Positions 2,899 to 51,158 of a stretch of DNA of 64,000 bases are shown one piece after another. The stretch lies in assembly GCF_000469325.1 (NCBI RefSeq), contig NZ_KI271585.1:58531-122530 (forward strand). Reading direction: 5' to 3'. Origin of the DNA: Schleiferilactobacillus shenzhenensis LY-73 (GTDB lineage Bacteria > Bacillota > Bacilli > Lactobacillales > Lactobacillaceae). A model generated the notes under the pieces. The model saw only the letters and a program-made list of their open reading frames with translations, ran no database searches and was not told where the DNA came from. Both the position numbers and the translations under genes were made by a program. Within the stretch, counting starts at the first letter, position 1. Each line of letters opens with the position of its first letter.

Positions 2899-2964
2899 CA
2901 AAAAGACGCCCGATCGGCAGTTTGTCCACGTGGATGAACAGACCGCCGACCGGGCGTCTTTTTT
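2899..2964. terminator. Terminator between the cyd operon and the convergent gene
   Basis: The arms AAAAGACGCCCGATCGGC and GCCGACCGGGCGTC pair with one bulge and are followed by a run of T on the plus strand; the A run at the left arm gives T on the minus strand. It can serve both the cyd operon and the convergent gene at 2978-3550. Confidence 0.85.
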
Positions 2965-2977
2965 ATTTGACTAGAAA

Positions 2978-3550
2978 TTATTCGCTGATCTTGCGAATCT
3001 TACCCACCGCGATGGGCAGCGTCGTGTTGGCCGTGTGTCCGGCAATGGCCCCCTGGACCGTCGCTGGCAGCTTGAAGTCCTCCGGCACGCCGTGAACGTA
3101 GAGCACCCGCTTCTCCAGGTGCAGTTCACGGTCGTTGAAGGCTTTCTCAAAACTGTTGCGCAGCGTCCCCAGCGGAATGATCTTTTCGTAAGTAAAATTG
3201 CCTTGGGCATCGGCCACCGGATACGTATCTTCCGGGATCCGCATGTGCTCAGGACTGGCGTTGAACGGCACCATGGTGGTGCCGGAAACAGGCTCCGTCT
3301 CTGGCAGATCGACGTAACCGTCGTGGTTGGCGTCTTGCGCAATCGTCGCCGGCTGGGCGTCTTGACCGTCCGGGAACCCATGGAAGTGCATCCAGTGCTG
3401 ACTATTGGCCGGGGTGCCGGTCATCGTGATCGTCACGACCAATTCGTCGCCCTGAATCTCGAAGCGGGCATGGCCTTTCGCAGCCGTGCCAATCTTGTCC
3501 GCATTCAACGGTGTGATATCTGCCTCATAAACTATCTTCTCTTCCGCCAT
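2978..3550 (-). CDS. Hypothetical protein with HWMHFHG and an EF-hand-like loop
   Basis: 190 residues, no signal peptide, acidic and probably beta-rich. A His cluster HWMHFHG (about residues 52-58) could bind metal and recalls the His-rich strands of CHRD or Cu/Zn-superoxide-dismutase-like folds. It is followed by DANHDGYVDL, which fits the DxNxDGxxD pattern of a calcium-binding loop. No family is assigned with certainty. It has its own ATG behind a purine-rich site and converges on the cyd operon. Metal binding is inferred from motif only. Confidence 0.7.
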   Translation of the reverse strand: MAEEKIVYEADITPLNADKIGTAAKGHARFEIQGDELVVTITMTGTPANSQHWMHFHGFPDGQDAQPATIAQDANHDGYVDLPETEPVSGTTMVPFNASPEHMRIPEDTYPVADAQGNFTYEKIIPLGTLRNSFEKAFNDRELHLEKRVLYVHGVPEDFKLPATVQGAIAGHTANTTLPIAVGKIRKISE

Positions 3551-3640
3551 TACATTTGGCCCCTTTCATTCGTGACAAAGTAACGCTTACCCTTAGAATA
3601 GACCAGCGGCTGGGGCGAATGCAACAAAAAGAATCACCGC

Positions 3641-4333
3641 TTATTGGAGCCAGGCGGCGGCATCGAAATGACTGAAGTCCACGGGGCCCGCAGCCCGGTT
3701 GGCAGGCCGCAGTGCCGACTGCCCGGTCAAGGGGAAGGTCTGCTTGGCGGCCACCGCCAGCGCCGCCGTAGCGGCCACGTCCACCCCCGCACCCACGCCG
3801 GCCCCAATGACCGGAACGATTTGGGAAAAGTGCAGCAGCCCGTGTTCCCCGGCGACAGAAAAGAGTTTGGCGCCCACTCGCTGGTTGATACGGGCCAGCG
3901 TCGCCGCCGACACCCGTTGACTCAAGCGGCCGGTCCAGGCAATACCGGCTTTCTTCAGGAAGTCTTCCGCCGCGTTGCCGGTCAGGGTGATCAAACTCAT
4001 GGTCTTCACCCGGTCGTCCGCCAGGTCGTACCCCCGCAGGGCGGCGATCACCGTCACCATGCGCAGCTGGACGTACAGCGTATTCGCCACTTCGGCCGGG
4101 ATGGTGACGGGCAGGGTCGCCAGGCCGCCGAGCCCGGTGATGAAGCTGACCGTTCCGACCCGCCGGCGGGCGTAGCGCAGGTAATCACGGATGGCCTGTT
4201 CGGCATCACCGCCCGCCTGGGCCAAATACGTCTCGGCCAAGGTGGCCGCTGACTGCCCCTTGCCGCCGCCTTTCACGGCCCGGTGATAACTCCAATTCAA
4301 GACCTGCTGTGCTGCGGTTTGCGTAAACGTCAT
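3641..4333 (-). CDS. EcsC-family protein
   Basis: 230 residues starting at MTFTQTAAQQ; the ATG at 4333 follows an AAAGAGGG site, whereas the open frame runs further upstream without a plausible start. The protein has the EcsC-like layout: a helical N-terminus, a hydrophobic stretch (FITGLGGLATLPVTIP, about residues 60-75), LITLTGNAAEDFLKKAG, and a Gly-rich hydrophobic C-terminal segment (VIGAGVGAGVDVAAT). EcsC proteins are poorly understood and are often linked to membranes or the Ecs transporter; no ecsAB genes are adjacent. Precedes no obvious operon partner. Confidence 0.8.
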   Translation of the reverse strand: MTFTQTAAQQVLNWSYHRAVKGGGKGQSAATLAETYLAQAGGDAEQAIRDYLRYARRRVGTVSFITGLGGLATLPVTIPAEVANTLYVQLRMVTVIAALRGYDLADDRVKTMSLITLTGNAAEDFLKKAGIAWTGRLSQRVSAATLARINQRVGAKLFSVAGEHGLLHFSQIVPVIGAGVGAGVDVAATAALAVAAKQTFPLTGQSALRPANRAAGPVDFSHFDAAAWLQ

Positions 4334-4431
4334 CGCCGCGGACCCTCTTTCTCGTTTTCTTCCATTGTCGGAGAAAACCGGCGCCGCCGCCAGGGTCAGC
4401 GGACGGAGAGCGGGTCGGGCGGGAGACGGAA

Positions 4432-4962
4432 TTAATGGGCCGCCGTCCGTCGGTAGCGGATATATTGCGGGACGTACAGGGCGACGGAGACCACTGCCGT
4501 GACCGCCGAGGCGATGAACAGCGCAGTCACCAGCACCGCCGGCAGCGCCGGGAAGAGCAGGACGAGCACGGCGGTCAGGTAGAATAGCGCCGTGGCCACC
4601 TTGCCCCACATCGCCGCTCCGGGGAGCTTCACCCCTTGGTGCAGGAGGATGGCCGCGCCGATCAGCATGACGGTCTCCTTGCCCAGCAGCACCCAGAATA
4701 TCCAGCGGTACTGGGGCAGGTGGAGGAAGAACACGATGATCACGCTGATCTGGGTCAGCTTGTCGGCCAGCGGGTCCAGGACCTTGCCCAGCTGGGAGAC
4801 CCAGTGGTTGCGCCGGGCCAGGTACCCGTCCAGCAGGTCGGTCAGGCTGATCACGGTGATCAAGACGCCCGCCGTGACGAACTGGCCCTGACTGGCGAAG
4901 TACAGGAACACCGGCAGCAGCACGAGCCGCAGGGCCGAGAGAATGTTTGGAATATGGCGCAT
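4432..4962 (-). CDS. CDP-alcohol phosphatidyltransferase (PgsA-like)
   Basis: 176 residues, about five or six hydrophobic segments. It contains the complete family signature D-G-x2-A-R-x8-G-x3-D-x3-D, seen as DGYLAR, then LGKVLDPLADK (residues about 44-68), which binds the divalent metal and CDP-diacylglycerol. Members transfer a phosphatidyl group to glycerol-3-phosphate or another alcohol during phospholipid synthesis. Length fits PgsA-like enzymes, but whether this is the housekeeping phosphatidylglycerophosphate synthase or a paralogue cannot be told from one window. Confidence 0.85.
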   Translation of the reverse strand: MRHIPNILSALRLVLLPVFLYFASQGQFVTAGVLITVISLTDLLDGYLARRNHWVSQLGKVLDPLADKLTQISVIIVFFLHLPQYRWIFWVLLGKETVMLIGAAILLHQGVKLPGAAMWGKVATALFYLTAVLVLLFPALPAVLVTALFIASAVTAVVSVALYVPQYIRYRRTAAH

Positions 4963-5045
4963 CGCCGCGCCCCCTTTCTATCTTCTATTATGCCAGAACG
5001 ACCCGCCAGCGTGTTACGATGAAGACAGAAAGGAAGCGTGACGTC

Positions 5046-5687
5046 ATGACAAATGTATTGATTCTGGGTGCGCACGGCCAGATCGCCCAGCTGGCAGAAA
5101 AGCAGCTGCTGCAGGAGACAACGCACCACCTGACCCTGTTCCTGCGGCGGGCCAGCCGCTTGACCGTCACCGACCCCGCTCGGGAAACCGTGATCGAGGG
5201 CGATGCCACTGACCCGGCGGCGCTAGTCAAAGCGCTGGCCGGCATTGACGTGGTCTACGCCAACCTCGGCGGTAAGACAATCGAGAAGCAGGCGCAAGCA
5301 GTCGTCCAGGCGATGGACCAGACCGGGGTGCACCGGCTGATTTGGATCTCCACGCTGGGTATCTACGATGAAGTGCCTGGGGCGTTCGGCCGCTGGAACC
5401 ACCAGATGCTGGACGGCGGTTACCTGGAGCCTTATACCGCTGCCGCTAAAGTCATCGAAGGGTCAGACTTAGCCTATACCATCATCCGGCCGGCCTGGCT
5501 GTCGAATAAGGACATCGTCAGTTACGAGACCACCGAAAAAGGCGAGCCGTTCAAAGGGACTGAAGTTTCCCGGAAGAGTATCGCGGACTTGGTCGTGCAA
5601 TTGATCAACGATCCCGACCGCGCCGTGGGTCATTCCCTGGGCGTGGATCAGCCCCACACCGAGGGGGACAAACCGTCCTTCTATTGA
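5046..5687 (+). CDS. NAD(P)-binding SDR/NmrA-like oxidoreductase
   Basis: 213 residues starting with a Rossmann nucleotide-binding motif (NVLILGAHGQIAQ, residues 3-15; GxxGxxA type). Later strands ANLGG and WISTLGIYDE fit the atypical SDR (SDR_a5) or NAD(P)H-binding families. The start at 5046 is chosen because AAAGGAAG lies 12 bases upstream and the Rossmann fold begins immediately; longer upstream starts add an implausible tail. Substrate unknown. Stands alone between divergent pgsA-like and pepF. Confidence 0.8.
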   Translation: MTNVLILGAHGQIAQLAEKQLLQETTHHLTLFLRRASRLTVTDPARETVIEGDATDPAALVKALAGIDVVYANLGGKTIEKQAQAVVQAMDQTGVHRLIWISTLGIYDEVPGAFGRWNHQMLDGGYLEPYTAAAKVIEGSDLAYTIIRPAWLSNKDIVSYETTEKGEPFKGTEVSRKSIADLVVQLINDPDRAVGHSLGVDQPHTEGDKPSFY

Positions 5688-5763
5688 TTTTTCGTTTTCT
5701 CACCAACATCCCCCGCTTTCTGTGATACGATGAGGCTATTCACAGGAAACGAGGGATGTTTTG

Positions 5764-19592: not shown

Positions 19593-22500
19593 ATGGGCTA
19601 TATATTAGGACTCGATATCGGAATAGCATCGTGTGGCTACGCCATCTTAGAAACGGACGCTTTGGGGATTCCATTCAAGATTAAGATGCTGAATTCAGTG
19701 ATTTTCACCCGGGCTGAGAATCCCAAAAATGGCGCATCCTTGGCTGAACCGCGCCGGCGTTATCGAGGCGCCCGGCGGCGCAAACGGCGGACGTCCTTCC
19801 GCAAGCACCGAACGCGCCAGCTATTCATCCGTGAGGGATTATTGACCCAGCAAGATATCACGGCCTATCTCAACCAAGAAATTAGCCATGATGACATCTG
19901 GCAGCTGCGCGTGGCTGCCCTCGACCAGCGGATCACCAGCCGCCAGCTTTTCCAGGTGCTCTACTACTTCGTCACTCACCGCGGGTTCAAGTCCAATCGC
20001 AAAGCCGAATTAACGGACAAGGACAATGGACCAGTGTTGAAATCCATTAGTGCGTTCGAGACGGAAATGACGGAGAACGGCTATCGGACCATCGGCGAAT
20101 TGTATGCCCATGACCGCCGTTTCCAAGACCGGAAGCATAACAAGGGCTACACCGACGGGTTCATTGGGACAGTAAAGCGGGCCTGGCTGGTGGATGAAAT
20201 CAAACGGATTCTTGCCGCTCAGCAGTCCTTGGGGAACGATAAAATCACTGACAAATTCGTTCACCAATACCTCGACATCTTTGAGAGCCAGCGTAACTAC
20301 GATGTCGGCCCTGCCAACGGCCCCTACGCCGGTGACCTGATTGCCAAGATGGTCGGCCCTGACACCTTCGATCGTTCGCGCAAACGGTCCCCCCGCGCGA
20401 CATACACGTTCCAATACTTCAACTTCCTGACCAAGTTGAACTCTCTTCGTGTGGCTGACAGTATTGGCGGTACCTATGCCCCTCTGACCGATGATCAACG
20501 CCAGACAGTTACTGAGCGGTTATGGGCCAAGGGGGTCAAATCGGCCGATTTAACCTTCAAGCAAATTCGGGCACTGCTTTCTCTCCCCGATGGCGCTCGT
20601 TTTAACTTGGTGACATACAGTGGGGATGCCAAGAAAGCACTCGAAATCGAAGGTAAGACCAAGTTTGTTTCAGTCAAACCGTTGCGTGATATTCAGAAAG
20701 CCTTAGACGACGAGCAACTGGCCAACGATCATGAACTGCTTGATGCCATTGCCCTGGTCCTAACGCTGTATAAGAGCGACGACAAGCGTCGGACAAAGTT
20801 CCACGAGCAGACCACTCTCCCGGATGACAAAATTGAACAGCTGTTACCGCTCAACTTTGCCAAGTTTGGGCACCTTTCTACCCATACAATGCAGGCGATC
20901 ATTCCTTACCTGGAACAAGGGATGGTCTATAGTGATGCCGCCACGGCAGCCGGTTACGACTTCCGGGATAACCAAATCGATATGGAGTACATTCGCGAGA
21001 ACGTTACGAATCCCGTCGTTCGCCGCGCTGTTAGCGTGGCCAACAAGCTGGTGAAGGCTGTGGTTCGCCGCTTCGGCAAGCCGGACAGTATCCACATTGA
21101 GCTCGCCCGTGACTTGAGTAAAAACTTCCAGGAACGCAAACAGGAAGAACAGTACCAGAAGAAGAACGCCGCCGCCAACGAGAAAATTGCGCAACAGTTG
21201 AAAGAGCTCGGCATTCCCGTCAATGGTATGAACATCACGAAGATGCGCCTCTTCAACGAGCAGAACGGGATCGATATTTACGATTTGACCCCTAATGCGT
21301 CAATGGCAGTAACCGACATCTTCTCCGACGACCTGTACGAAATTGACCACATCATTCCTTACAGCATCAGTTTTGACGACAGTTATAGCAACAAGGTCCT
21401 GGTCAGTGCCAAAGCCAACCGGGAGAAGCGCGATCGTATCCCGATGGAGTTCTTCGGTAATGATCCGAAGACTCGGGCCCAGTTTGTTAATCGGGTAAAC
21501 ACCAACATTCACAACGCTAAGAAGAAACGCAATCTACTCAAGGAGACCCTGACCGACGAAGACAAGAGCCAATGGAAGTCGCGGAATATCAACGATACCC
21601 GGTATTTGAACCGTATTCTGATGAACTACTTGTCTCAAAATGTTGAATTCACGGACGTTCTGAGCAAGGCCAAGCATGTCATCGCGTTGAACGGTGCGGT
21701 CACCGCGAAGATTCGGTCCCGCTGGGGTATCACAAAGGTCCGCGTAGCCGGCGACTTGCACCATGCGGTGGACGCCGTAGTCATTGCCTGCGTCACCGAC
21801 GGCCTCATTCAAGCAGTCACCAGGTATGCCAAGTACCAAGAAAGAAAGGGCAACAAGCTCGCTTCTCTGGATGATCTTCAAGATGACAACCCAGACGGTT
21901 TAGATGCCAAACGGTTCCGCAAGCTGTTTAATGACTATCCCCTGCCCTGGCCAGAATTCCGCGAAGAATTACATGGGCGTGTTTCCGATGCGCCGGATAA
22001 GTTGATGGCTGGTCATCCGTGGGCACATTATACCCCTGAAGAAATTGCTGGGTTGCAGAAACCATTTGTGGTCCGCGTTCCGAATCATCGCATTGTAGGG
22101 CCGGCAACTCTAGATACGGTTTATGGTCAACCGGACCCTGACAGCAATATTATCACCCAACGTGTTCGAATCACTGACCTGAAACTCAAGAAGAGCAAAA
22201 ATGGTGATGACACAATCGCTGCAGGTACCAACGCGTATGCTTTGGCGGAAGATGGTGGAAACAAAGTGGTCTACGAAACCATTCTACGGGCTTTACAGGC
22301 GGCTAATGGCGATGGGAAGAAAGCTTTCCCTGAGGGGCGAGTGATGGTGAAGATGCCGAATGAAACGATTCCGGTGGAGCGCGTCCGTGTTACCGGCAAG
22401 GCAACATCCACTGTACCGGTCGGCCCGAAGAGTGTAGCAGCAAACGGTTCGATGGTGCGTATTGATGTTTACAAGACGCCGAAGAAGTATGTGTTCGTTC

Positions 22501-22907
22501 CTGTTTACGTGAAGGACACAGTAAACGAGAACCTACCGAAAAAAGCTGCCACACAGAGAAAGTCACTGGCGGACTGGTACGAGATTCAACCACAAGATCA
22601 ATTCGAGTTTTCATTATTTGCGAATGACCTCATTCACATTGTCAACAAGAAAGGGATAAAGACAACCGAAATCAACGCTGACGGCATGTCAACGAATGGG
22701 ATTCGGGAAGAAATAGTTGGATACTTCACAGGAGCGGATATTGCTACAGCTTCGATTGCTTTCGACGGTCCTGATCGTTCTTTCTCCGCACGAAGCGTCG
22801 GATTCGCAACCCTAGACAAAGTTGAGAAAGTATCAACAAACTATTTCGGTGAATTGGCGGTAGTTCATGAGACACAGCCGTTGGGATTCACCAACAAAGG
22901 AGATTAA
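19593..22907 (+). CDS. cas9: Compact Cas9 nuclease, type II-C
   Basis: 1104-residue RNA-guided DNA endonuclease. Catalytic residues are all visible: RuvC-I LGLDIG with D8; Arg-rich bridge helix about residues 53-80; RuvC-II IHIELARD with E503; HNH EIDHIIPYS with H586, plus N600 and N609 at the spacing seen in SpCas9; RuvC-III LHHAVDA with H724 and D727. The C-terminal ~330 residues are the wedge/PAM-interacting part. Length, absence of csn2 and cas4, and the cas9-cas1-cas2 order indicate II-C, a subtype less usual for lactobacilli, where II-A dominates. The PAM cannot be read from the sequence. It appears intact and active. Confidence 0.97.
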   Translation: MGYILGLDIGIASCGYAILETDALGIPFKIKMLNSVIFTRAENPKNGASLAEPRRRYRGARRRKRRTSFRKHRTRQLFIREGLLTQQDITAYLNQEISHDDIWQLRVAALDQRITSRQLFQVLYYFVTHRGFKSNRKAELTDKDNGPVLKSISAFETEMTENGYRTIGELYAHDRRFQDRKHNKGYTDGFIGTVKRAWLVDEIKRILAAQQSLGNDKITDKFVHQYLDIFESQRNYDVGPANGPYAGDLIAKMVGPDTFDRSRKRSPRATYTFQYFNFLTKLNSLRVADSIGGTYAPLTDDQRQTVTERLWAKGVKSADLTFKQIRALLSLPDGARFNLVTYSGDAKKALEIEGKTKFVSVKPLRDIQKALDDEQLANDHELLDAIALVLTLYKSDDKRRTKFHEQTTLPDDKIEQLLPLNFAKFGHLSTHTMQAIIPYLEQGMVYSDAATAAGYDFRDNQIDMEYIRENVTNPVVRRAVSVANKLVKAVVRRFGKPDSIHIELARDLSKNFQERKQEEQYQKKNAAANEKIAQQLKELGIPVNGMNITKMRLFNEQNGIDIYDLTPNASMAVTDIFSDDLYEIDHIIPYSISFDDSYSNKVLVSAKANREKRDRIPMEFFGNDPKTRAQFVNRVNTNIHNAKKKRNLLKETLTDEDKSQWKSRNINDTRYLNRILMNYLSQNVEFTDVLSKAKHVIALNGAVTAKIRSRWGITKVRVAGDLHHAVDAVVIACVTDGLIQAVTRYAKYQERKGNKLASLDDLQDDNPDGLDAKRFRKLFNDYPLPWPEFREELHGRVSDAPDKLMAGHPWAHYTPEEIAGLQKPFVVRVPNHRIVGPATLDTVYGQPDPDSNIITQRVRITDLKLKKSKNGDDTIAAGTNAYALAEDGGNKVVYETILRALQAANGDGKKAFPEGRVMVKMPNETIPVERVRVTGKATSTVPVGPKSVAANGSMVRIDVYKTPKKYVFVPVYVKDTVNENLPKKAATQRKSLADWYEIQPQDQFEFSLFANDLIHIVNKKGIKTTEINADGMSTNGIREEIVGYFTGADIATASIAFDGPDRSFSARSVGFATLDKVEKVSTNYFGELAVVHETQPLGFTNKGD

Positions 22908-22910
22908 GGT

Positions 22911-23813
22911 ATGGGTTATCGAAATATCTTTATTGAAAGCCCGGCTACCCTGTCAATTCATAGATCCCAGTTGCGAGTGAGAACGGACACCGACCACACC
23001 TTTCCATTGGATGACATTCAGAGCATCCTTCTCGACAATCTAGCAACAAGTATTACAGCAAACGTTCTATCTCAGTTGAGTAAGAACAACATTGCCGTGA
23101 TTGTCTCTGATGTACAGCATCTCCCAACAACAACGCTGTTGCCCATTCAAGGGTATTATCACAAGCTGACTGCGCTACGCCAACAGTTAACCGTACCCAA
23201 GCGTTTTAAAGATCGTCTTTGGCAAAAAATCATCCGTCGAAAGATTCTTAACCAAAGCGCAGTGTTGAACATCTTGAACGTGACTGGTGGGATAAGTATG
23301 TCCCGTTTTGCATCTGCAGTGAAGGAGGGCGATTCAACCCATCAAGAGGGTTACGCCGCGGCGTTTTATTTCCAGTCTGCCTTTGGCGAGGTGTTTTCAC
23401 GACGCACTGAAGATGTTCAAAATGCTGCACTGAATTATGGCTACGCCATAATCCGTAGCTGCGTGGCACGTGAAATCTGCGCATTTGGATTGGAACCGTC
23501 TTGGGGCATATTCCACCGTAACCAGATGAACCCGTTCAATCTTGCCGACGATTTCATGGAGACATTTCGACCGATTGTCGATTTGGTCGTATTACAGATG
23601 CACTTCGATGAATCCGACGCCCTGACCAGCCAAGCCAAGAAAGAATTACTGAATATTCAAAGTCTGGATGTACAAATAAATGAATCCATTCAAACGGTCC
23701 GCAACGCTATCCACATGACTGTCGAAAGCATATCTGCCGCATACGCAACAGGAAAAATGTCAGGAATCAGCCTCCCTCAGCTCATTCCATTGCATCCTCA
23801 TGAGTTCGCCTAA
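22911..23813 (+). CDS. cas1: Cas1 integrase
   Basis: 300 residues. It integrates new spacers together with Cas2. The metal-binding triad is recognisable as E146 (HQEGYAAAFYF), H202 (GIFHRNQMNPFN) and E217 (ADDFMETFRP). It starts 3 bases after the cas9 stop with AAAGGAG upstream, so it is co-translated with cas9. Length is typical of type II Cas1. Confidence 0.96.
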   Translation: MGYRNIFIESPATLSIHRSQLRVRTDTDHTFPLDDIQSILLDNLATSITANVLSQLSKNNIAVIVSDVQHLPTTTLLPIQGYYHKLTALRQQLTVPKRFKDRLWQKIIRRKILNQSAVLNILNVTGGISMSRFASAVKEGDSTHQEGYAAAFYFQSAFGEVFSRRTEDVQNAALNYGYAIIRSCVAREICAFGLEPSWGIFHRNQMNPFNLADDFMETFRPIVDLVVLQMHFDESDALTSQAKKELLNIQSLDVQINESIQTVRNAIHMTVESISAAYATGKMSGISLPQLIPLHPHEFA

Positions 23814-24126
23814 GTTCATGCGAGTAATCGTAATGTTCGACTTGCCCGTTGTAGAAGCTGAAGACCGCAAGGCTGCAAATCGTTTCCGACATGATTTAAT
23901 CTCTGAGGGGTTCGTAATGATGCAGTATTCAGTCTATTACCGCATCGTCAATGGGCTGGATATGGCAAAGAAATATGAAAATAGGATCGAAGGCTTCCTT
24001 CCTGAAAAGGGACAGGTGCGATTGCTTCTGCTCACAGAGAAGCAGTTTGCCAACATGAAGGTCCTAATTGGGGACATCAGCCCGCAAGAAAGGGATATTT
24101 CAGGAAACTCACTGACAAGTTTATAG
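23800..24126 (+). CDS. cas2: Cas2
   Basis: 108 residues (102 if the start at 23818 is used; the conserved MRVIVMFDLPV begins there). Ferredoxin-like structural partner of Cas1 in spacer integration, with the strand-1 Asp (MFDLPV). The open frame overlaps cas1 by 14 bases at the ATG 23800; neither start has a strong Shine-Dalgarno, so translational coupling with cas1 is likely. Confidence 0.95.
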   Translation: MSSPKFMRVIVMFDLPVVEAEDRKAANRFRHDLISEGFVMMQYSVYYRIVNGLDMAKKYENRIEGFLPEKGQVRLLLLTEKQFANMKVLIGDISPQERDISGNSLTSL

Positions 24127-24132
24127 CCAAGA

Positions 24133-24167
24133 AAAGACGGCTCAAATCGCATGGTTGAGCCGTCTTT
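24133..24167. terminator. Bidirectional terminator between cas2 and the array
   Basis: AAAGACGGCTCAA pairs perfectly with TTGAGCCGTCTTT, with T3 on the plus side and T4 on the minus side. It can end the cas operon and also stop leftward array transcripts before they run antisense into cas2. Confidence 0.85.
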
Positions 24168-24177
24168 ACATTTATCT

Positions 24178-27100
24178 GTCCCATTTTAGCCGATTGCGGA
24201 AGGATCCAATAGCATCCGTCAAAATTTGGCAAGAAGTTTGAATGTCCCATTTTAGCCGATTGCGGAAGGATCCAATAGCTGCCATGGGCGCCTATTTTAA
24301 TACGCTGACGTCCCATTTTAGCCGATTGCGGAAGGATCCAATAGCGACGGGCATTGCCAAACTGTACGCCGGAGAGTCCCATTTTAGCCGATTGCGGAAG
24401 GATCCAATAGCCGCCAGTACAATCAGGCCCGGACTCGCGAAGTCCCATTTTAGCCGATTGCGGAAGGATCCAATAGCTATCTATCGTGGCGCTATCCAGG
24501 CCATGAAGTCCCATTTTAGCCGATTGCGGAAGGATCCAATAGCCTGGGTCACCTGATTGTTCAGGAATGATCTGTCCCATTTTAGCCGATTGCGGAAGGA
24601 TCCAATAGCTCGAGACATCAAAATAATCGGCTACTTTCTGTCCCATTTTAGCCGATTGCGGAAGGATCCAATAGCCGTCGCCGCCGGGTAGCGGCAACTG
24701 AAATAGTCCCATTTTAGCCGATTGCGGAAGGATCCAATAGCAAGTTATTCCACGTGTTAAGACAAGCAAATGTCCCATTTTAGCCGATTGCGGAAGGATC
24801 CAATAGCACAACTCGGGGGGTAAATTAAAATGAATAGGTCCCATTTTAGCCGATTGCGGAAGGATCCAATAGCTCCACTTGGTCTCAGAGACAGAGGCTT
24901 GCCGTCCCATTTTAGCCGATTGCGGAAGGATCCAATAGCTTGCAGGGCGGCCAAGGCGTGGCTGTGGTAGTCCCATTTTAGCCGATTGCGGAAGGATCCA
25001 ATAGCGGTCAAGGAAGGGACGACAGGAAGCGAGAAGTCCCATTTTAGCCGATTGCGGAAGGATCCAATAGCGGGGGGGTACGATCATCAGCTATTTACTT
25101 GTCCCATTTTAGCCGATTGCGGAAGGATCCAATAGCACTGGCTGTTCTCGCATTGACGTAACCTGCGTCCCATTTTAGCCGATTGCGGAAGGATCCAATA
25201 GCCGGTTGGCCTTAACGTTGACCAAGTAGTCGGTCCCATTTTAGCCGATTGCGGAAGGATCCAATAGCTTCATGTCGGTCATTTCTTGACCCCCAATAGT
25301 CCCATTTTAGCCGATTGCGGAAGGATCCAATAGCCCAGCCACCGGAACTTCGCCATTTCTTTATGTCCCATTTTAGCCGATTGCGGAAGGATCCAATAGC
25401 AAGAGCCTTAGCGTAGTCGTGCGAAATGCCGTCCCATTTTAGCCGATTGCGGAAGGATCCAATAGCCAAGGTTGTGTGTGGTGATGGACTGCATTTGTCC
25501 CATTTTAGCCGATTGCGGAAGGATCCAATAGCTCCCCTCCTCATCTAGTGGATGAAGAAGCAGTCCCATTTTAGCCGATTGCGGAAGGATCCAATAGCTT
25601 GGCCGGTACGCCCACTTTTTTCGCCAAAGTCCCATTTTAGCCGATTGCGGAAGGATCCAATAGCACCCGCGCCGGTGCTGATGACAACGCCCGTGTCCCA
25701 TTTTAGCCGATTGCGGAAGGATCCAATAGCGGCAGCCGTGCACCAGCAGACGTTAACGACGTCCCATTTTAGCCGATTGCGGAAGGATCCAATAGCCGCG
25801 TTGACGTGCTGGACTTGCAAGAGGACGTCCCATTTTAGCCGATTGCGGAAGGATCCAATAGCTACACCGAAGTTCGTCCCATTGTAACCGATGTCCCATT
25901 TTAGCCGATTGCGGAAGGATCCAATAGCAGCCCGCGAGTTCGGGAGGGTGCGCAAAGAGTCCCATTTTAGCCGATTGCGGAAGGATCCAATAGCCCACCT
26001 TATCCAAAGTAAACTCGACGCCAGGTCCCATTTTAGCCGATTGCGGAAGGATCCAATAGCGGGCACGGGAAAAACATTACCGACACTGATGTCCCATTTT
26101 AGCCGATTGCGGAAGGATCCAATAGCGAGCAAGGTGAACTGTACACCGCTGAGGAAGTCCCATTTTAGCCGATTGCGGAAGGATCCAATAGCAAAACACC
26201 TATACCACTGCTAAAATAAAACGTCCCATTTTAGCCGATTGCGGAAGGATCCAATAGCTTGGGCACGTCTTTCATGATGGCCGCAAAGGTCCCATTTTAG
26301 CCGATTGCGGAAGGATCCAATAGCCTGAAGCTTTGCCATGCCCGTGTTGATCTTGTCCCATTTTAGCCGATTGCGGAAGGATCCAATAGCCGGATCAGGT
26401 TTCTTTCCAGCGGGAAAGAAGTCCCATTTTAGCCGATTGCGGAAGGATCCAATAGCCGTGCAACTCTGAGTGAACCTTACCATCACGTCCCATTTTAGCC
26501 GATTGCGGAAGGATCCAATATCTGTATCAGCTCGTTAGAGCGTGTCTGGCGGGTCCCATTTTAGCCGATTGCGGAAGGATCCAATAGCGGCTGCTGTGGT
26601 CAGCTCATCGGCATGGCTGTCCCATTTTAGCCGATTGCGGAAGGATCCAATAGCATAGGGGGTATTGTGTTATGTGTGGAAGGGGTCCCATTTTAGCCGA
26701 TTGCGGAAGGATCCAATAGCTCGCCTTGCTCTAGGTGAGCGCCCGTCAGCGTCCCATTTTAGCCGATTGCGGAAGGATCCAATAGCTTTCTGGATCAACA
26801 GCAGCAGCCGAATCTTGTCCCATTTTAGCCGATTGCGGAAGGATCCAATAGCCACGAAAGGCGGAAATTATCATGACTAAGGTCCCATTTTAGCCGATTG
26901 CGGAAGGATCCAATAGCTGGTTAGAAGAAAAGGGATATATAGTCCCCGTCCCATTTTAGCCGATTGCGGAAGGATCCAATAGCGGCGCCCGACCGTGTAA
27001 ACACCTTTTTATGGTCCCATTTTAGCCGATTGCGGAAGGATCCAATAGCCTGAGCCCGCTGCGGAACTTCCGGAAAGACGTCCCATTTTAGCCGATTGCG

Positions 27101-27709
27101 GAAGGATCCAATAGCCGGCAAGATTGACTGGATGACCATTGATCAGTCCCATTTTAGCCGATTGCGGAAGGATCCAATAGCGACGTGGGGCCGGGGGTCC
27201 CCTTCGTACAGGTCCCATTTTAGCCGATTGCGGAAGGATCCAATAGCCAACCGGTCTTTGCTCCTGCCCTTGGCGTAGTCCCATTTTAGCCGATTGCGGA
27301 AGGATCCAATAGCCGTCCAAATAGCCCATGCCGGGCTTGATGAGTCCCATTTTAGCCGATTGCGGAAGGATCCAATAGCGGACGGTGATGCCAATGCGCA
27401 CTAACCGCAGTCCCATTTTAGCCGATTGCGGAAGGATCCAATAGCTCAGGCCTAGATAATGATGTGAAGCCATATGTCCCATTTTAGCCGATTGCGGAAG
27501 GATCCAATAGCGCCCTGCTTGTGCATCAGCTCTTCTTCGCGGTCCCATTTTAGCCGATTGCGGAAGGATCCAATAGCATGGTGGTCGTTGTTGTGTCCCC
27601 CCGAGCAGTCCCATTTTAGCCGATTGCGGAAGGATCCAATAGCACGGCAAACTAAAATAGCAGTTGAAAGGTCGTCCTATTTTAGCCGATTGCGGAAGGA
27701 TCCAATAGC
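24178..27709 (-). CRISPR. CRISPR array, 54 repeats of 36 bp and 53 spacers
   Basis: Perfectly regular 66-bp period. Plus-strand repeats begin GTCCCATTTT and end GGATCCAATAGC; the first starts at 24178 and the last at 27674. 51 spacers are 30 nt; two (25072-25100 and 26853-26881) are 29 nt. Repeat variants: number 36 (26487-26522) ends ATATC instead of ATAGC, and number 54 has a C to T change at base 5. No spacer is duplicated. The tracrRNA orientation shows that crRNAs are read from the minus strand, so the working repeat begins GCTATTGG. No long AT-rich leader exists on either side. Confidence 0.99.
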
Positions 27710-27729
27710 TTCTGGAGGGATTCAATAGC
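27710..27729 (-). repeat. Truncated degenerate CRISPR repeat
   Basis: 20 bases abutting the last repeat with no spacer. They match the last 20 bases of the repeat at 16 positions and the tracrRNA anti-repeat at 17, sharing the anti-repeat's GGAGGGAT variant. Confidence 0.75.
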
Positions 27730-27736
27730 AATTGCT

Positions 27737-44834: not shown

Positions 44835-44947
44835 TTACACATTTGTGATACTTTGCGCTACCTTTTCCGTAACTGTTGCGGTATGCTTTGCCTAAAGAAT
44901 ACCCGCACCAATAAATTCAATACACAGGTATGGAAAACGAGGCAATA

Positions 44948-45670
44948 ATGATGATTGATTCAAACAAAACGCACCTCACTTGGCGTCAACGGTTGTCCTT
45001 CCGCCGCGACCTGGGCAATCGGCTTAACGTCCTGCGGGCGGCCGTGATGGGGGCCAACGACGGCATCATTTCCACCGCCGGCATCGTGATGGGCGTGGCC
45101 GGCGCCAACATGTCCGCCACAGCCCTGATGCTGGCCGGCGTCTCCGCAATGATCTCCGGCGCGCTTTCCATGGGCGGCGGAGAATACATGTCGGTGTCGG
45201 CCCAGCGCGACTTGCAAAACGCGATCGTGCAAAAGGAAGAAGCAGCGCTGCGGGACGACAAGACGGGCAGCTTCCAGGCCATGTACCGGCACTATTTAGA
45301 TAAAGGCTACGCGGCCGAGAATGCGGCCGCCATGGCCCACACCATTGTCGACAACAATGATATTGCAACGATTCTGGCCGAGAAGTTTCAAATTAAATTA
45401 GACAAGCTGCTCAATCCTTGGCTGGCCGCTGGCGCTGATTTCTTTGCCTTCATTCTGGGGGCGCTGCTGCCGCTGCTGTGCATCACCCTGATTCCAAATC
45501 CCTACAAAGTCGGGGTAACCATGGCCGCCGTAGTTGTCTGCCTTTTCGGCACTGGCTACACGAGCGCCAAGCTGAGCCAGGTCCCCGCACGCAAGGGTGC
45601 TCTGCGGAATATGGTCGTGGGGATGTTGACGATGGTTGTGGGATTTATCATCGGCTCACTGATTGGCTAG
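44948..45670 (+). CDS. VIT1/CCC1-family transporter
   Basis: 240 residues, five predicted membrane segments. Relatives move Fe2+ or Mn2+ across membranes. Signature elements are NVLRAAVMGANDGIISTAGIVMGVAGA (segment 1) and SAMISGALSMGGGEYMSVSAQRD (segment 2), with Glu/Met residues that line the metal path. The start near 44948 follows ACGAGG; an ATG at 44930 has no ribosome site. Confidence 0.9.
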   Translation: MMIDSNKTHLTWRQRLSFRRDLGNRLNVLRAAVMGANDGIISTAGIVMGVAGANMSATALMLAGVSAMISGALSMGGGEYMSVSAQRDLQNAIVQKEEAALRDDKTGSFQAMYRHYLDKGYAAENAAAMAHTIVDNNDIATILAEKFQIKLDKLLNPWLAAGADFFAFILGALLPLLCITLIPNPYKVGVTMAAVVVCLFGTGYTSAKLSQVPARKGALRNMVVGMLTMVVGFIIGSLIG

Positions 45671-45680
45671 GACGCGGAGC

Positions 45681-45702
45681 GCGAAAAATTGGTCAATTTC
45701 GC
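45681..45702 (+). terminator. Weak hairpin after the VIT gene
   Basis: GCGAAAAATTG pairs with CAATTTCGC (one bulged A), followed by TTGTTTGT. Confidence 0.5.
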
Positions 45703-45732
45703 TTGTTTGTAATAAAAACCGAAATTTCCTCA

Positions 45733-45761
45733 TTGACTTTATGATGGTGTAGCCCTAATCT
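45733..45761 (+). promoter_or_regulatory. Promoter of the lanthipeptide cluster
   Basis: TTGACT (45733-45738), 17 bases, TAATCT (45756-45761). The predicted start is near 45768, ten bases before the Shine-Dalgarno AAAGGAGG (45778-45785). Confidence 0.75.
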
Positions 45762-45793
45762 ATGGGTAATCTTTAAGAAAGGAGGAAACCGTC

Positions 45794-45940
45794 ATGCAGC
45801 TCAATCGACTGAACGACCTGAAAGGGATTGCGAAGTTTTCTGTCGCTAACGAGGAAGAGCCTACATTCTGCGGTTACACTTGCAGGAACACTTGCGGCAA
45901 TAGCGTCGGCATCAGGAACACGGAAACATTGCAGGCTTAA
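45794..45940 (+). CDS. Lanthipeptide precursor peptide (48 aa)
   Basis: 48 codons with an excellent AAAGGAGG 8 bases before the ATG and its own promoter. The leader part (residues 1-23) is amphipathic and acidic towards its end (LNRLNDLKGIAKF, then NEEEP), similar in style to class III/IV leaders. The core-like part (24-48) carries Cys26, Cys30 and Cys34 with Thr24, Thr29, Thr33, Ser37, Thr43 and Thr45, seen as TFCGYTCRNTCGNSVG. The next gene is a lanthionine synthetase, so Thr/Ser dehydration and ring closure with the Cys are expected. Too short for routine gene callers. Ring topology and cleavage site are unknown; cleavage after the NEEEP region is a guess. Confidence 0.85.
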   Translation: MQLNRLNDLKGIAKFSVANEEEPTFCGYTCRNTCGNSVGIRNTETLQA

Positions 45941-45952
45941 TCGCCTGCAATG
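45927..45952 (+). terminator. Hairpin over the precursor stop codon
   Basis: CATTGCAGGC-TTAATC-GCCTGCAATG, a perfect 10-bp stem whose loop holds the TAA of the precursor gene. There is no T tract, so it more likely stabilises or separates the peptide message than terminates. Confidence 0.7.
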
Positions 45953-45957
45953 GGATT

Positions 45958-46006
45958 ATTGGCGCTCTTCATTTTCGCCTACCCGACAATGAGGAACGCC
46001 AATTTT
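45958..46006 (+). terminator. Attenuator-like terminator before the synthetase
   Basis: ATTGGCG pairs with CGCCAAT, extended inside by TTCATT with AATGAG, and followed by TTTT. It probably lets the precursor be made in excess over the enzymes downstream. Confidence 0.6.
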
Positions 46007-46034
46007 GTCTAATTAAGCCATTGAGGGTGAACAC

Positions 46035-48617
46035 ATGTCTAACCTAAACAATGAGGGTAAAAGCTTCGAAACAGATTTCCTCACGAAATTTCTGCAACAT
46101 TATGACGCCCGAAATTACACTCGCTATCAGGACGCCCACTGGTTTTACTTTGTTCCAAAAGATGTCACTGGACAAGTCTTACCCGATGGCGGCTTTAAAG
46201 GACACATCTCGGCACAGTTCCAAGATATCCTATCTGTCCTTGAAGTGGCGCTACCAATCATCATCAACAGCAAGTGCTCGTTTAAAGTTGCGGTTTCATC
46301 CCGTCAAGTAACTAACTTGATAGACCTGCATTCTTCTATCACGGAAGCCAACAAATTTCTAACCTTCTATCCTGCCACCATCACAGAATTTAGGTCGCTG
46401 ATGTTCACGTTATTCAATGCGCTACGGCCCTTCAAAGCTCCGAGTATCTATACCGATCAGCAGTGCGGTGTGGGACACCCCTTGCACTTTAGATTTGGCG
46501 CATTCGTCAGTCATTCTCGTTGGAATGCACAGCACAGCGCCTTGGAATACTTCTTCCATTATAATGGCCAGGAATATGTTGACGATCGTTCCCAAGGCTT
46601 TCACCTGCCGACAGATGTTCCTTCGCCGTTCTCTGAGGTTGAAGAAGAGAAACTGGGTTTCTTTGACGATTCCTTGCCAGCAGATAGCCCGCTGTCCGAG
46701 TATACGTTTGAGCGTGACTTGCAGGACCGCAATATGGGGTCTGTCTTCACCGCACGTAATAGTCTAAATCAGAAGGTCATCATTAAAACGGCGAATCCCT
46801 ATGTTCACGGTCCTGCAGAGCATCCAACCGCACAAGACACCCTAAAAAACGAATATACTCTGTTGTGCCGTCTTGCCAGCACTGAGTGCACGCCTAAGCC
46901 GCTGGCTTACTTTTCCGTGTTGGGAACTGATTTCTTGGTGGAAGAATACATTACTGGGAAAACCATCAATCGTGATCTCAGCGTGGACTATCCTCCTTTA
47001 CAAGTGGCCAAAGCAGTTGTCCAAACAGTCCGACGAGTGCATCAAGAACGAGTAACCATCGGTGATCTGTCAAACAACAATTTTATTTACGATGGCAAGC
47101 GGGCTTACCTTATTGATTTGGGTGACAGCGCGCTGACCGCCGCTCACCACGCCGCCCCCCTGCGTTACTACACACCGCGGTATGCCCTGCCGCCGACCCG
47201 CCAGGCCAGACAAAGCTTGGCAAACGATGCTTTTGCCCTTTTTGCCACTTGCGCTGTTGTCTTTTTGGGTAACCCCCTATCCTATCCGGATACTGCCAAT
47301 GAGGCTTTCTTTGACCTGCGAGCACAATTACACACTGCCGAATCGCTTGGCATTTTGAGCACCAACAATACCCACTTTTTACTGGGCTTGCTGCAAAATG
47401 CCTTCCCCGCCATAGCCAGCAAGTCCGTCAGTGGTTCTGCGGCATTCTCCACGGGTGTGTTGACGGATACCTTTGACCGCGTTTTGCCTGTCACAGTGGC
47501 CGGTTATGCCCACCTGGTCCACCAGAAGCCAACCATATCCGGTCGTTACTGGACAAGTAATGCCTTCGCCGAGACCGTCTCTCCCTTGGGTATCCAGCAT
47601 GGCATTGCGGGCATGCTGGGCGTGATCGACGCGTTATCGCCCGATCAATTAAGCACAGGCAGGATCTTACAGATTAATCAGGACTTTGCGCCGTTCATTG
47701 AACGTGAAACTGACAATAGCTATCTGTTTGGCTTAAGCGGCTACGCCTGGGCTCTCCATAGTATTAATAGGGAGCGTGCTGATTCGCATTTAGCGTCAGT
47801 CGTCGCAGCCTTGCTAAACAAAGCCGTTCTACTGCCTACGACCAAGGATGACTATGCCTTAGGCGCAGCCGGGGTCGTTGCCACTTTGGTGTATTGTGCC
47901 GATTCTGACGACACAACAGTCCAGTTAGTCAAGCTCGCTGACAAGCTGGCAAGCACTGTTCATAGTTTTACAGCGATGATTAACCATCAATTGATGCCAT
48001 CATGGCAGGACTTAGGGTTTGCCCATGGCCTGGGCGGCATGGTGTTTGCTCTATTGTCTGCCAGTATACGACTGCATCGCCCGGACCAGCAGCGTATGGC
48101 TCAAGACGGTTTGCTGGTATTGAGAAAGAAACTCGATCTATTATTAGTCATTCAGCATCACCAACGCTATATGGACCTTTCCTGGTGCCAGGGACTCGCG
48201 GGCATTGCGGAGGCCTTGCTGTTGGTCGACGCCTTGATTGATGATGCAACACCCGATGAGGCCCGTCTGAGCAAAATCGAGGACCGCTTAATCGGCGGCT
48301 ATTATTCACTCAATGATGCCGTCTGTCACGGTAAAGCGAGTGTCATGAATGCCTTGCTGGATCATCAGATGCTAGCTCCTGGCACATGGCATCATGAAAA
48401 AGCACTGACGAGATTGATGCAAGCTCAGTTGTTAAATGGCGGCGTTGTTGATCACGGTTATCAATTTACTGATGAGAGCGGTATCGGACATTTACTAGAC
48501 TACGGCGTCGGTCAAAGCGGCACCTTATACACCGTCGCTCGCTACTTTTCTGGGCAGCCCCATCTATTCACGCCCACCCAGGCGGAGATGGCCAGGCTGG
48601 CTCGACAGGGGGATTGA
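46035..48617 (+). CDS. Lanthionine synthetase, class III/IV (lyase-kinase-cyclase)
   Basis: 860 residues. It phosphorylates Ser/Thr of the precursor, eliminates phosphate and closes (methyl)lanthionine rings. N-terminal lyase-like region about 1-200 (KFLTFYPAT, LHFRFGAF); Ser/Thr-kinase region about 230-480 with VIIKTAN, TIGDLSNNNF (catalytic D344) and YLIDLGDS; LanC-like cyclase from about 520. In the cyclase the zinc ligands are kept: C718 (SWCQG) and C764-H765 (CHG). These are normally lost in class III LanKC and present in class IV LanL. It follows the precursor directly. Lower GC than the flanking chromosome suggests transfer. Confidence 0.9.
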   Translation: MSNLNNEGKSFETDFLTKFLQHYDARNYTRYQDAHWFYFVPKDVTGQVLPDGGFKGHISAQFQDILSVLEVALPIIINSKCSFKVAVSSRQVTNLIDLHSSITEANKFLTFYPATITEFRSLMFTLFNALRPFKAPSIYTDQQCGVGHPLHFRFGAFVSHSRWNAQHSALEYFFHYNGQEYVDDRSQGFHLPTDVPSPFSEVEEEKLGFFDDSLPADSPLSEYTFERDLQDRNMGSVFTARNSLNQKVIIKTANPYVHGPAEHPTAQDTLKNEYTLLCRLASTECTPKPLAYFSVLGTDFLVEEYITGKTINRDLSVDYPPLQVAKAVVQTVRRVHQERVTIGDLSNNNFIYDGKRAYLIDLGDSALTAAHHAAPLRYYTPRYALPPTRQARQSLANDAFALFATCAVVFLGNPLSYPDTANEAFFDLRAQLHTAESLGILSTNNTHFLLGLLQNAFPAIASKSVSGSAAFSTGVLTDTFDRVLPVTVAGYAHLVHQKPTISGRYWTSNAFAETVSPLGIQHGIAGMLGVIDALSPDQLSTGRILQINQDFAPFIERETDNSYLFGLSGYAWALHSINRERADSHLASVVAALLNKAVLLPTTKDDYALGAAGVVATLVYCADSDDTTVQLVKLADKLASTVHSFTAMINHQLMPSWQDLGFAHGLGGMVFALLSASIRLHRPDQQRMAQDGLLVLRKKLDLLLVIQHHQRYMDLSWCQGLAGIAEALLLVDALIDDATPDEARLSKIEDRLIGGYYSLNDAVCHGKASVMNALLDHQMLAPGTWHHEKALTRLMQAQLLNGGVVDHGYQFTDESGIGHLLDYGVGQSGTLYTVARYFSGQPHLFTPTQAEMARLARQGD

Positions 48618-48619
48618 CT

Positions 48620-50224
48620 ATGCTTCATTACTTTCGCCTCAATCCGGGACGCACATTCATTGTGTCCCTCATGACCGTGCTCTGTTCAGTCGTGCGCGTG
48701 AGCCATGGGGTCCTCTTGGCCTATATATTGAACGCCATCGTGGCCAAGAATATGCAGCAGTTCGTGCTTTGGACCGTCGCTGATTTTGCCGTCTTCACAT
48801 TACTGGGTATCCTGCTCTTCAGTACCAGTTGGTTAAGAAGTATCCTTATTCAAAAGATGAGCACACAATTACGGTTGGACATTGCCCAAAATGTGACGAG
48901 CGGTGACTATGCTTTTTTTCACCGACACGATACGGGGACTTATGGCTCTTGGTTGACGAATGATATCACGATGATTGAAAGCCAGGGTTTCGCTTGTTTC
49001 TTTCTAATCATCCAACTGATCTGCGACACCGGGTTCACCATTGTGGCCTTTCTTCAATTTCATTGGTCGCTTATCGTCATCTCGTTTCTCCTCGCGTTGG
49101 CGACGTATGGCGTCCCGCAGCTGCTGCACAAACAAATGGCCGTGGCCAACCTGAATGTGACCCATGCTAACGAAAAGTTGCTTGCCAGAGCCCAATCCTT
49201 GTTTAAGGGGTTCGACACCCTCTTTTCTCTGGACTTGCAACGGCATATCCCGGCTGATCTGAAGGAACCTGCGGAGGCTCTGGCCCAAGCCCAGGTCAAA
49301 GAATCTGTCGTCCAGGCGGGCATGAATGGTATCGCCGGTTATTCCAGCATCATCAGCCAAATTACCCTCACGGCTTGGACTGGCCTGCTGGTGCTCTGGG
49401 GATTGACCTCAATTGGTACGATTGAATCTGTCGGTAATCTTTCATTCAATATTTTGAACAGTATGGCCCAACTGGGGCCGGTCATCGTGGCCATTCAAGC
49501 CGTGCAGCCTTTGTTCGCTAAATATGTACCCGCGCCAGCTAACCCTCAAGCGGCTGAGAAAAAGCAATTGCCGGCAGCTGCCGCCGGTCCCATCCAACTA
49601 ACCAATTTGAGTTATACTTATCCAGGAAGCCCAAAAGCAGCGTTGCGTTCAATTACAGTCACAATTGCGCCCACCCAAAAGGTGGCTGTTACGGGACCGT
49701 CCGGCGTGGGCAAGTCAACGCTGCTGAACATCCTGAATGGTAAACTTACGAACTACCAAGGAGCGGCTGAGATCGCCCATATTCCGCTGCAGCAAATTAA
49801 TAGCCATTCCTTGCGCCGCACACTGCTGTACATTGATCAGCAGCCTTATGTTTTTGCCGGCACGGTCCGGGATAACATGAATCTAGGCGAGCACTATTCG
49901 GACAAACAGATCATGGCGGCGTTGCAACAAGCTGACCTGGCAGCCTTTGTCCAAGACCTGCCGGCTGGGCTAGACACCCCCGTTGGCGAAGACGGCCGGC
50001 TTTTCTCTGGTGGTCAGCGCCAGCGCTTGGCCTTAGCACGGGGAATGCTGCGTCAGCGGCACATTATGCTCATTGACGAGGGGACGAGTGCCCTGGACCG
50101 GGCCAGTGCTTTGACCGTGGAAAACAGTTTTCTTAAGCAAGCGGATCTCACAGTGATTTTCGTCACGCACCAACTGCATGACGAGAACAAGGCGCTCTTT
50201 GACCAAGTGATCCAGTTGAGCTGA
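48620..50224 (+). CDS. ABC exporter for the lanthipeptide (membrane plus ATPase)
   Basis: 534 residues: about six membrane segments (1-300), then the ATPase with GPSGVGKST (Walker A), FSGGQRQRLALARG (signature), LIDEGTSALD (Walker B) and FVTHQ. No N-terminal C39 peptidase is present, so it exports but probably does not cleave the leader. The ATG at 48620 overlaps the end of the synthetase operon message by spacing (GGGGG 7 bases upstream), indicating co-transcription. Confidence 0.9.
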   Translation: MLHYFRLNPGRTFIVSLMTVLCSVVRVSHGVLLAYILNAIVAKNMQQFVLWTVADFAVFTLLGILLFSTSWLRSILIQKMSTQLRLDIAQNVTSGDYAFFHRHDTGTYGSWLTNDITMIESQGFACFFLIIQLICDTGFTIVAFLQFHWSLIVISFLLALATYGVPQLLHKQMAVANLNVTHANEKLLARAQSLFKGFDTLFSLDLQRHIPADLKEPAEALAQAQVKESVVQAGMNGIAGYSSIISQITLTAWTGLLVLWGLTSIGTIESVGNLSFNILNSMAQLGPVIVAIQAVQPLFAKYVPAPANPQAAEKKQLPAAAAGPIQLTNLSYTYPGSPKAALRSITVTIAPTQKVAVTGPSGVGKSTLLNILNGKLTNYQGAAEIAHIPLQQINSHSLRRTLLYIDQQPYVFAGTVRDNMNLGEHYSDKQIMAALQQADLAAFVQDLPAGLDTPVGEDGRLFSGGQRQRLALARGMLRQRHIMLIDEGTSALDRASALTVENSFLKQADLTVIFVTHQLHDENKALFDQVIQLS

Positions 50225-50285
50225 GTGACGCCCACTGCTGCGTTATGGTAAATTAGTCAATATACAACAGAAAGCAGGCGACCGC

Positions 50286-51158
50286 GTGGCCCATTCTTAT
50301 CGTCATCCCGATGCCCCCGCTCTTCAAAAATGGCTCGCTGAATTGGGCGGGCCCCAGCAACCGGCCCTCACCCTGTGTGCCCGGGCGCTAGACTGGTTCG
50401 ATACCAACGAGATTGCGTACAGCCGGTTGAATGCCCCTTTCACGCCCCTCCAGCGCAGCGACCTGGACGTGCTGCGGTGGCATAGCGGCACCTGCGGCGA
50501 CTTCAGCAATCTCCTCGTCAGCCTCCTGCAAGCCGCCGGTCTGCCCGCCGCCTATGCGGTCGTGACCCGGGATTGCTACGGTGACTTACAGGATCATATT
50601 TGCGCGGCCACCCAGGACGCCGTCGGCCGGTGGGTGCTGGTCGACGCCACCGATCCCTACCGCAAGTGGCACGGCCTGGCCTGTCCCCATCAGGATTATA
50701 CCCTGCTCACCCCGGCAGCGATGACCGCCCGGTTTCAGCAGGAAGAAAAGACCTGGCAGTCCGCCGCCGCCCAGTGGTCTGATCCCCGCACCGCGGGCTT
50801 ACTCTACGCCCCCTGGCTGCACAGCGAGATCGTGATGGAGACAGAGGACAGTTTAGGATCAGTGTTCATTCTGCTGACGCTGCCCGCACCGGGTCAATGG
50901 CAACTGACTGCCTATTACCAGTGTTACACCGCCGTTCGCGGTGTCGCGCTGGTGCGGCGTGTCCACACGGCTACCACGAGTTTTCTTCAATTCTCAGCTA
51001 ACAGTGCCGCGCATATTTGGGATGAAGGACAGTGGTCTGCTCCGGGAACGGTCCGGGATCTGCCGGCGAAGGTGGTCTTTGCCAGTGAACAAATCGATGC
51101 CGTTCTGGCCGCTCACGAAAAAGAATTGGCAAACGCTATCACCTGTGCCAGCCGCTGA
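50286..51158 (+). CDS. Transglutaminase-like (papain-fold) protein
   Basis: 290 residues, GTG start. Triad of the transglutaminase/protease-like superfamily: C70 in HSGTCGDFSNLL, H104 in LQDHICAA and D120 in WVLVDATDP. No signal peptide, so it is cytoplasmic. Family members are mostly proteases or amidases in bacteria. It begins 61 bases after the exporter, possibly with its own promoter, and would be a candidate for leader cleavage because the exporter has no peptidase; this is inference from position only. GC is higher than in the lanthipeptide genes, so it could also be unrelated chromosomal sequence. Confidence 0.75.
   Translation: MAHSYRHPDAPALQKWLAELGGPQQPALTLCARALDWFDTNEIAYSRLNAPFTPLQRSDLDVLRWHSGTCGDFSNLLVSLLQAAGLPAAYAVVTRDCYGDLQDHICAATQDAVGRWVLVDATDPYRKWHGLACPHQDYTLLTPAAMTARFQQEEKTWQSAAAQWSDPRTAGLLYAPWLHSEIVMETEDSLGSVFILLTLPAPGQWQLTAYYQCYTAVRGVALVRRVHTATTSFLQFSANSAAHIWDEGQWSAPGTVRDLPAKVVFASEQIDAVLAAHEKELANAITCASR

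Follow-up and report, generated by a model that had tools for sequence, protein, structure and literature searches.

A candidate class IV-type lanthipeptide cluster in Schleiferilactobacillus and a related family of precursors built from tandem C-x-x-T/S units

The DNA analysed here (hereafter, the window) is a 64-kb stretch of contig C4 in a 3.27-Mb Schleiferilactobacillus genome (G000). It contains three genes that we read, with a probability of roughly two in three, as a complete cluster, acquired horizontally, for making and exporting a small lanthipeptide of class IV type with reverse four-residue rings. Its features are the following:

45671-50285, no strand: extent of the insertion, flanked by VIT1 (44930-45670) and a transglutaminase-like gene (50286-51158); the site is empty in two congeners
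45733-45761, + strand: possible promoter read from the sequence, with a -35 TTGACT (45733-45738), a spacer of 17 nt and a weak -10 TAATCT (45756-45761)
45778-45785, + strand: ribosome-binding site AAAGGAGG, seen in the sequence 5' of the precursor ORF
45794-45940, + strand: lanthipeptide precursor of 48 aa, an ORF with homologues at 13 related loci
45869-45904, + strand: three tandem CxxT/S core units, CGYT CRNT CGNS (residues 26-37)
46035-48617, + strand: class IV-type (zinc) lanthipeptide synthetase of 860 aa
48620-50224, + strand: ABC half-transporter without a peptidase domain (Pfam ABC_membrane and ABC_tran)

The precursor ORF translates as MQLNRLNDLKGIAKFSVANEEEPTFCGYTCRNTCGNSVGIRNTETLQA, with a leader of about residues 1-22 and a core, TFCGYTCRNTCGNSVG, from about residue 23. 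The first-pass annotation had described a 48-codon gene preceded by AAAGGAGG, with three Cys and six Thr/Ser in its C-terminal half, followed in one direction by a synthetase and an ABC exporter. The ORF and sequence check confirmed the first point, the residue counts agree when taken from T24 onward, and all three genes lie on the + strand with matching Pfam domains. A small ORF combining tandem CxxT/S units with a ribosome site occurs only once in the window, as the precursor ORF, and homologous precursors occupy the equivalent place in related clusters, which argues against a chance ORF. The expectation that annotation would miss such a gene is supported by a relative, the plasmid locus L011 (NZ_CP029545), where RefSeq has no gene at the precursor (2952-3062) and names the synthetase (3137-5728) 'lipopolysaccharide core heptose(II) kinase RfaY'. 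A hydrophobic 20-aa ORF (MGLLALFIFAYPTMRNANFV, 45950-46012) lies between precursor and synthetase in the window, and a tiny hydrophobic ORF (MDTRKRNNIGASILLNTFVMLLAFLFLLWR, 3040-3132) does so in L011. Such ORFs are absent from some loci, and the 94-bp gap of L012 is too short for a counterpart, so the 20-aa ORF was rejected as a conserved part of the cluster. Rfam matched nothing near the lanthipeptide cluster.

The synthetase combines a RamC_N lyase (approximately residues 25-203), a kinase weakly matched by Pfam but with its catalytic residues present (approximately 223-400) and a LANC_like cyclase (522-843) in one chain. Full-length enzymes from the window, L. helsingborgensis, G170, S. harbinensis, a probably streptococcal genome and a Lachnospiraceae MAG were aligned. 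Invariant among them were the lyase KxH and K, the kinase residues K251, E273, D344, N349 and D361, and the zinc-site residues H664, C718, C764 and H765. The zinc motifs, which read LSWCQG, VCHGK and FAHG in the window cyclase, were found in 14/14 enzymes of the clade described below and in none of the class III comparison enzymes. Zinc ligands are present in class IV enzymes and missing from class III (PMC7268733). The initial assignment of the cluster to class III thus has to be revised, since the cyclase keeps H664, C718 and C764-H765 and the LanL model outscores LanKC (306 vs 238 bits). Both NCBIfam scores are under cut-off; LanL (NF038150) was the best of all models, and its curated cut-off of 650 bits serves annotation and is not a test of mechanism. 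Judged by these residues and by the tree, we call the synthetase class IV-type by mechanism and place it in a probably separate clade by descent. An AlphaFold model built from four sequences had a mean pLDDT of 52.5, not good enough to search for similar folds.

In a tree of 27 enzymes, 14 zinc-motif enzymes formed one branch with 100/100 support. Their hosts are Schleiferilactobacillus, Lactobacillus, Sporolactobacillus, a Lachnospiraceae MAG and a large genus that is probably Streptococcus. Two actinobacterial LanL enzymes and the class IV enzyme of G1287 fall outside this branch. The best tree places the clade apart from the two actinobacterial LanL; with all zinc enzymes in one clade, the AU test gives p=0.046, a weak rejection. 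G000 itself holds three further LanKC/LanL-like genes, on contigs C7 (L014, 9679-12051), C34 (L015) and C2 (L016). The first is of the zinc type, lacks the lyase and most of the kinase, and adjoins an Rgg gene; the other two are at contig ends, and the one on C2 has no zinc motifs. A tblastn search of the C7 locus in G000 returned no precursor remnant.

Each member of the clade is paired with a small precursor of its own, and all of these share tandem C-x-x-T/S units. In 12 of the 14 loci, the nearest upstream ORF that starts with ATG, has a ribosome site and contains two or more Cys encodes a 31-48-aa peptide; the precursors of L022 and L023, which were located using the CxxT motif itself, lie 2.4-3.8 kb upstream of the synthetase. 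Homologous clusters could have carried a different precursor elsewhere; instead, a related one is present, usually directly upstream. The window cluster has both marks of the clade, a tandem CxxT/S precursor and a clade synthetase. The cores, by locus, are:

L011: FTCLITCGYTEKK
L012: RLCGYTCSKTC (last Cys without a partner)
L013: QPCLSTCWGTMM
L022: SCTFTCGVSCSVTG
L023: FCSYTCSWTCSVTIG
L030: LCGSTIVICGVTGAG
L031 and L048, identical: LCDFTCSVTVG
L049: LCDFTCTHTVS
L050: LCDYTCSYTA
L051: YCSLTCLITGH
L052: YCSFTCLITGN
L053: VCKWTCSFTAL

Of the 30 Cys in the 13 distinct precursors, 29 are followed by a Ser/Thr exactly at +3. Shuffling the core residues gave a mean of 6.6 and a maximum of 15 Cys at +3, and none of 20000 shuffles reached 29 at any offset. 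The runner-up offset, -1 (18/30 Cys), is a by-product of the tandem units. The first four precursors had been chosen by their place before the pattern was noticed; in these, 9/10 Cys have the +3 partner, a count reached in 0/20000 shuffles. In L030, CGST-IVI-CGVT alters the spacing between units and not within them. An L..L..LP-like stretch is common to the leaders of the family. No family member matched the NCBIfam precursor models above chance, and neither the comparison class III cores nor the actinobacterial ALQxL class IV core follows the +3 rule. The core had originally been parsed as T-x-C/TC pairs and described as unlike the labionin pattern SxxSxxxC. The second description stands, as that pattern does not occur in the core; the conserved unit is, however, C-x-x-T/S, from which a different ring direction is predicted. 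Outside the clade, G1287 and its congeners have one CSWT or CSVT unit behind a similar precursor leader. In genus g102 (L085-L101), a strongly conserved class IV precursor, MENKEILSVQDLMALEVEEDNNMFEETSLCTVCSWTSSQTIVVES, is encoded ~250 bp 5' of the synthetase gene; it has a single CxxT unit and may be an intermediate form.

In usual lanthionines, a dehydrated Ser/Thr is joined to a Cys farther on, a direction that is standard in most lanthipeptides. If the window peptide followed this rule, Dhb24 or Dhb29 would be taken by a later Cys (for example T24-C30 and T29-C34), leaving one Cys free. The window core does offer such donors, with T24 and T29 both available to C30 or C34 and a Thr at -6 of C30 and at -5 of C34. 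Some homologues lack the donors for canonical rings: in L049, neither Cys is preceded by a Ser/Thr within 8 residues, and in L012 and L013 none stands before the first Cys. Moreover, the only spacing kept in all 13 precursors is +3, so we regard the canonical direction as unlikely. Since some cores have no N-terminal Ser/Thr, only the pairing of Cys with a later Thr fits all of them, which points to the reverse direction, Cys(N) to Dhb/Dha(C).

Reverse rings could still be longer or nested, with Cys joined to the residue at +7, or could be a mix of both sizes. In 12/13 precursors, the tandem units do bring a Ser/Thr to position +7 from the first Cys, but L030 drops this spacing while retaining +3 in both units, and the last Cys never has a Ser/Thr at +7. 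Rings of this kind therefore also seem improbable, and four-residue reverse rings are the reading that we prefer. Under that reading, the leader would bind the synthetase, the kinase would phosphorylate Thr29, Thr33 and Ser37, and the lyase would eliminate phosphate, leaving Dhb29, Dhb33 and Dha37. The zinc cyclase would then link each of Cys26, Cys30 and Cys34 to the dehydro-residue that follows it at +3. The predicted product has three four-residue thioether rings in a row without overlap (C26-T29, C30-T33 and C34-S37), each with its Cys N-terminal; the ABC transporter would carry it out of the cell, and trimming would fall to a protease whose gene lies elsewhere. We infer dehydration, ring direction, leader cleavage, secretion and any activity. 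For the family as a whole, we lean slightly towards a distinct Bacillota clade of zinc synthetases specialised in turning tandem Cys-x-x-Thr into arrays of reversed-polarity four-residue rings, an undescribed scaffold in which the number of rings would equal that of the repeats (two or three).

The start of the exporter is best read as ATG 48620 behind GGGGGA, the ORF being open also from TTG 48614. Its identity is 61% to the exporter of L013, 49% to L014, 41% to L012 and 36% to both L011 and L022, against ~27% to the class III exporter of L071; others align only partially. The loci of genus g43 have an MFS gene in place of the ABC exporter. In S. harbinensis (G058) and in G021, VIT1 and the transglutaminase-like gene are neighbours, 376 and 363 bp apart, whereas 4.6 kb separate them in the window. 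As both flanking genes adjoin in congeners that have no cluster at this site, the cluster comprises the precursor, the synthetase and the exporter, and nothing more. For the same reason, the transglutaminase-like gene was rejected as a candidate leader protease. The G+C content of the cluster is 0.45-0.54, compared with 0.55-0.62 around it. Searches for copies gave no match in the single-protein scan of genome contigs or the viral contig scan, and no near copy of the cluster in the plasmid nucleotide search. The empty sites (L063 and L064) encode on the opposite strand a conserved 26-aa hydrophobic peptide, MRYVLIVCIVIAIAAGFIANKKRQKQ, which is lost where the window has the cluster. Elsewhere in the window (19593-27731) lies a type II CRISPR-Cas system, with a Cas9-like 1104-aa protein, Cas1 and a repeat array read as YWILPQSAKMGL-type ORFs.

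The promoter had been called strong, a description not borne out: the -35 matches 5/6 positions and the -10 only 3/6, and the consensus promoter scan lists no site at 45733-45761. The window's cluster contains no regulator, protease or immunity gene, and no regulator is adjacent. In relatives, Rgg-type (lactobacilli) or XRE regulators adjoin the cluster, and the g43 loci encode a 45-aa exported peptide with a DPGPA motif; together, these suggest peptide-controlled expression in those relatives. Exported peptides of 45 aa, such as MKKFLKKLIVMSLLGGLILAIGNGGINKSRPMNEIDPGPANGIVE, sit between the XRE regulator and the precursor in L031 (8514-8377, - strand), L049 and L050, and they look like pheromones that may control the cluster. 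The weak promoter, the lack of an adjacent regulator and the damaged synthetases elsewhere (frameshifted in L022 and L030, split on C7 of G000) might suggest that the cluster is silent or in decay in this strain, like some of its relatives. This is quite unlikely, given that each of the three window genes is intact and has a good ribosome site, and that every catalytic residue is present.

Among known systems, the class IV LanL clusters (venezuelin, globisporin, streptocollin, SflA) share with the window a three-domain synthetase with zinc ligands, a neighbouring small precursor and an exporter; the window differs in that its precursor is not of the ALQxL type, its core is tandem CxxT and its host belongs to the Bacillota. 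Class III LanKC systems (SapB, the Staphylococcus simulans and S. salivarius peptides) share the lyase and kinase domains, but have no zinc ligands, and their LxLQ leaders and SxxSxxxC cores are unlike those of the window. Lanthionines with Cys N-terminal to Ser/Thr occur in cinnamycin (class II). The ring directions of SyncM products, also class II, give a further precedent (PMC12328550). However, the cinnamycin group and SyncM/prochlorosin depend on other enzymes, and their rings do not form tandem arrays of identical i,i+3 units. We know of no precedent for reverse rings in such an array made by a LanL. The literature searched contained nothing specific on reversed rings or CxxT cores, and no description of the CxxT precursor family was found in its open part, although supplementary tables may list some precursors. 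Class IV clusters predicted by antiSMASH are listed for L. helsingborgensis, including strain ESL0183 (PMC10673953), and for L. mulieris (PMC10449518). The ESL0183 plasmid locus is L011, a homologue of the window cluster; the available text of that report covers the enzymes and not the CxxT precursor rule (PMC10673953). The enzyme class in L. helsingborgensis had thus already been reported.

A survey of 815 class IV clusters found 86% of precursors unannotated and none from Firmicutes characterised (Walker 2020; PMC7268733). Class IV lanthipeptides of Bacillota were uncharacterised in the surveys consulted and their precursors are mostly unannotated, and one simple sequence rule now renders a precursor family findable. 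How LanC-type cyclases choose ring polarity is poorly understood; the question becomes directly testable, because two-unit homologues without other nearby Ser/Thr admit one answer only. If the prediction is true, short repeated four-residue rings would offer a convenient scaffold for peptide engineering.
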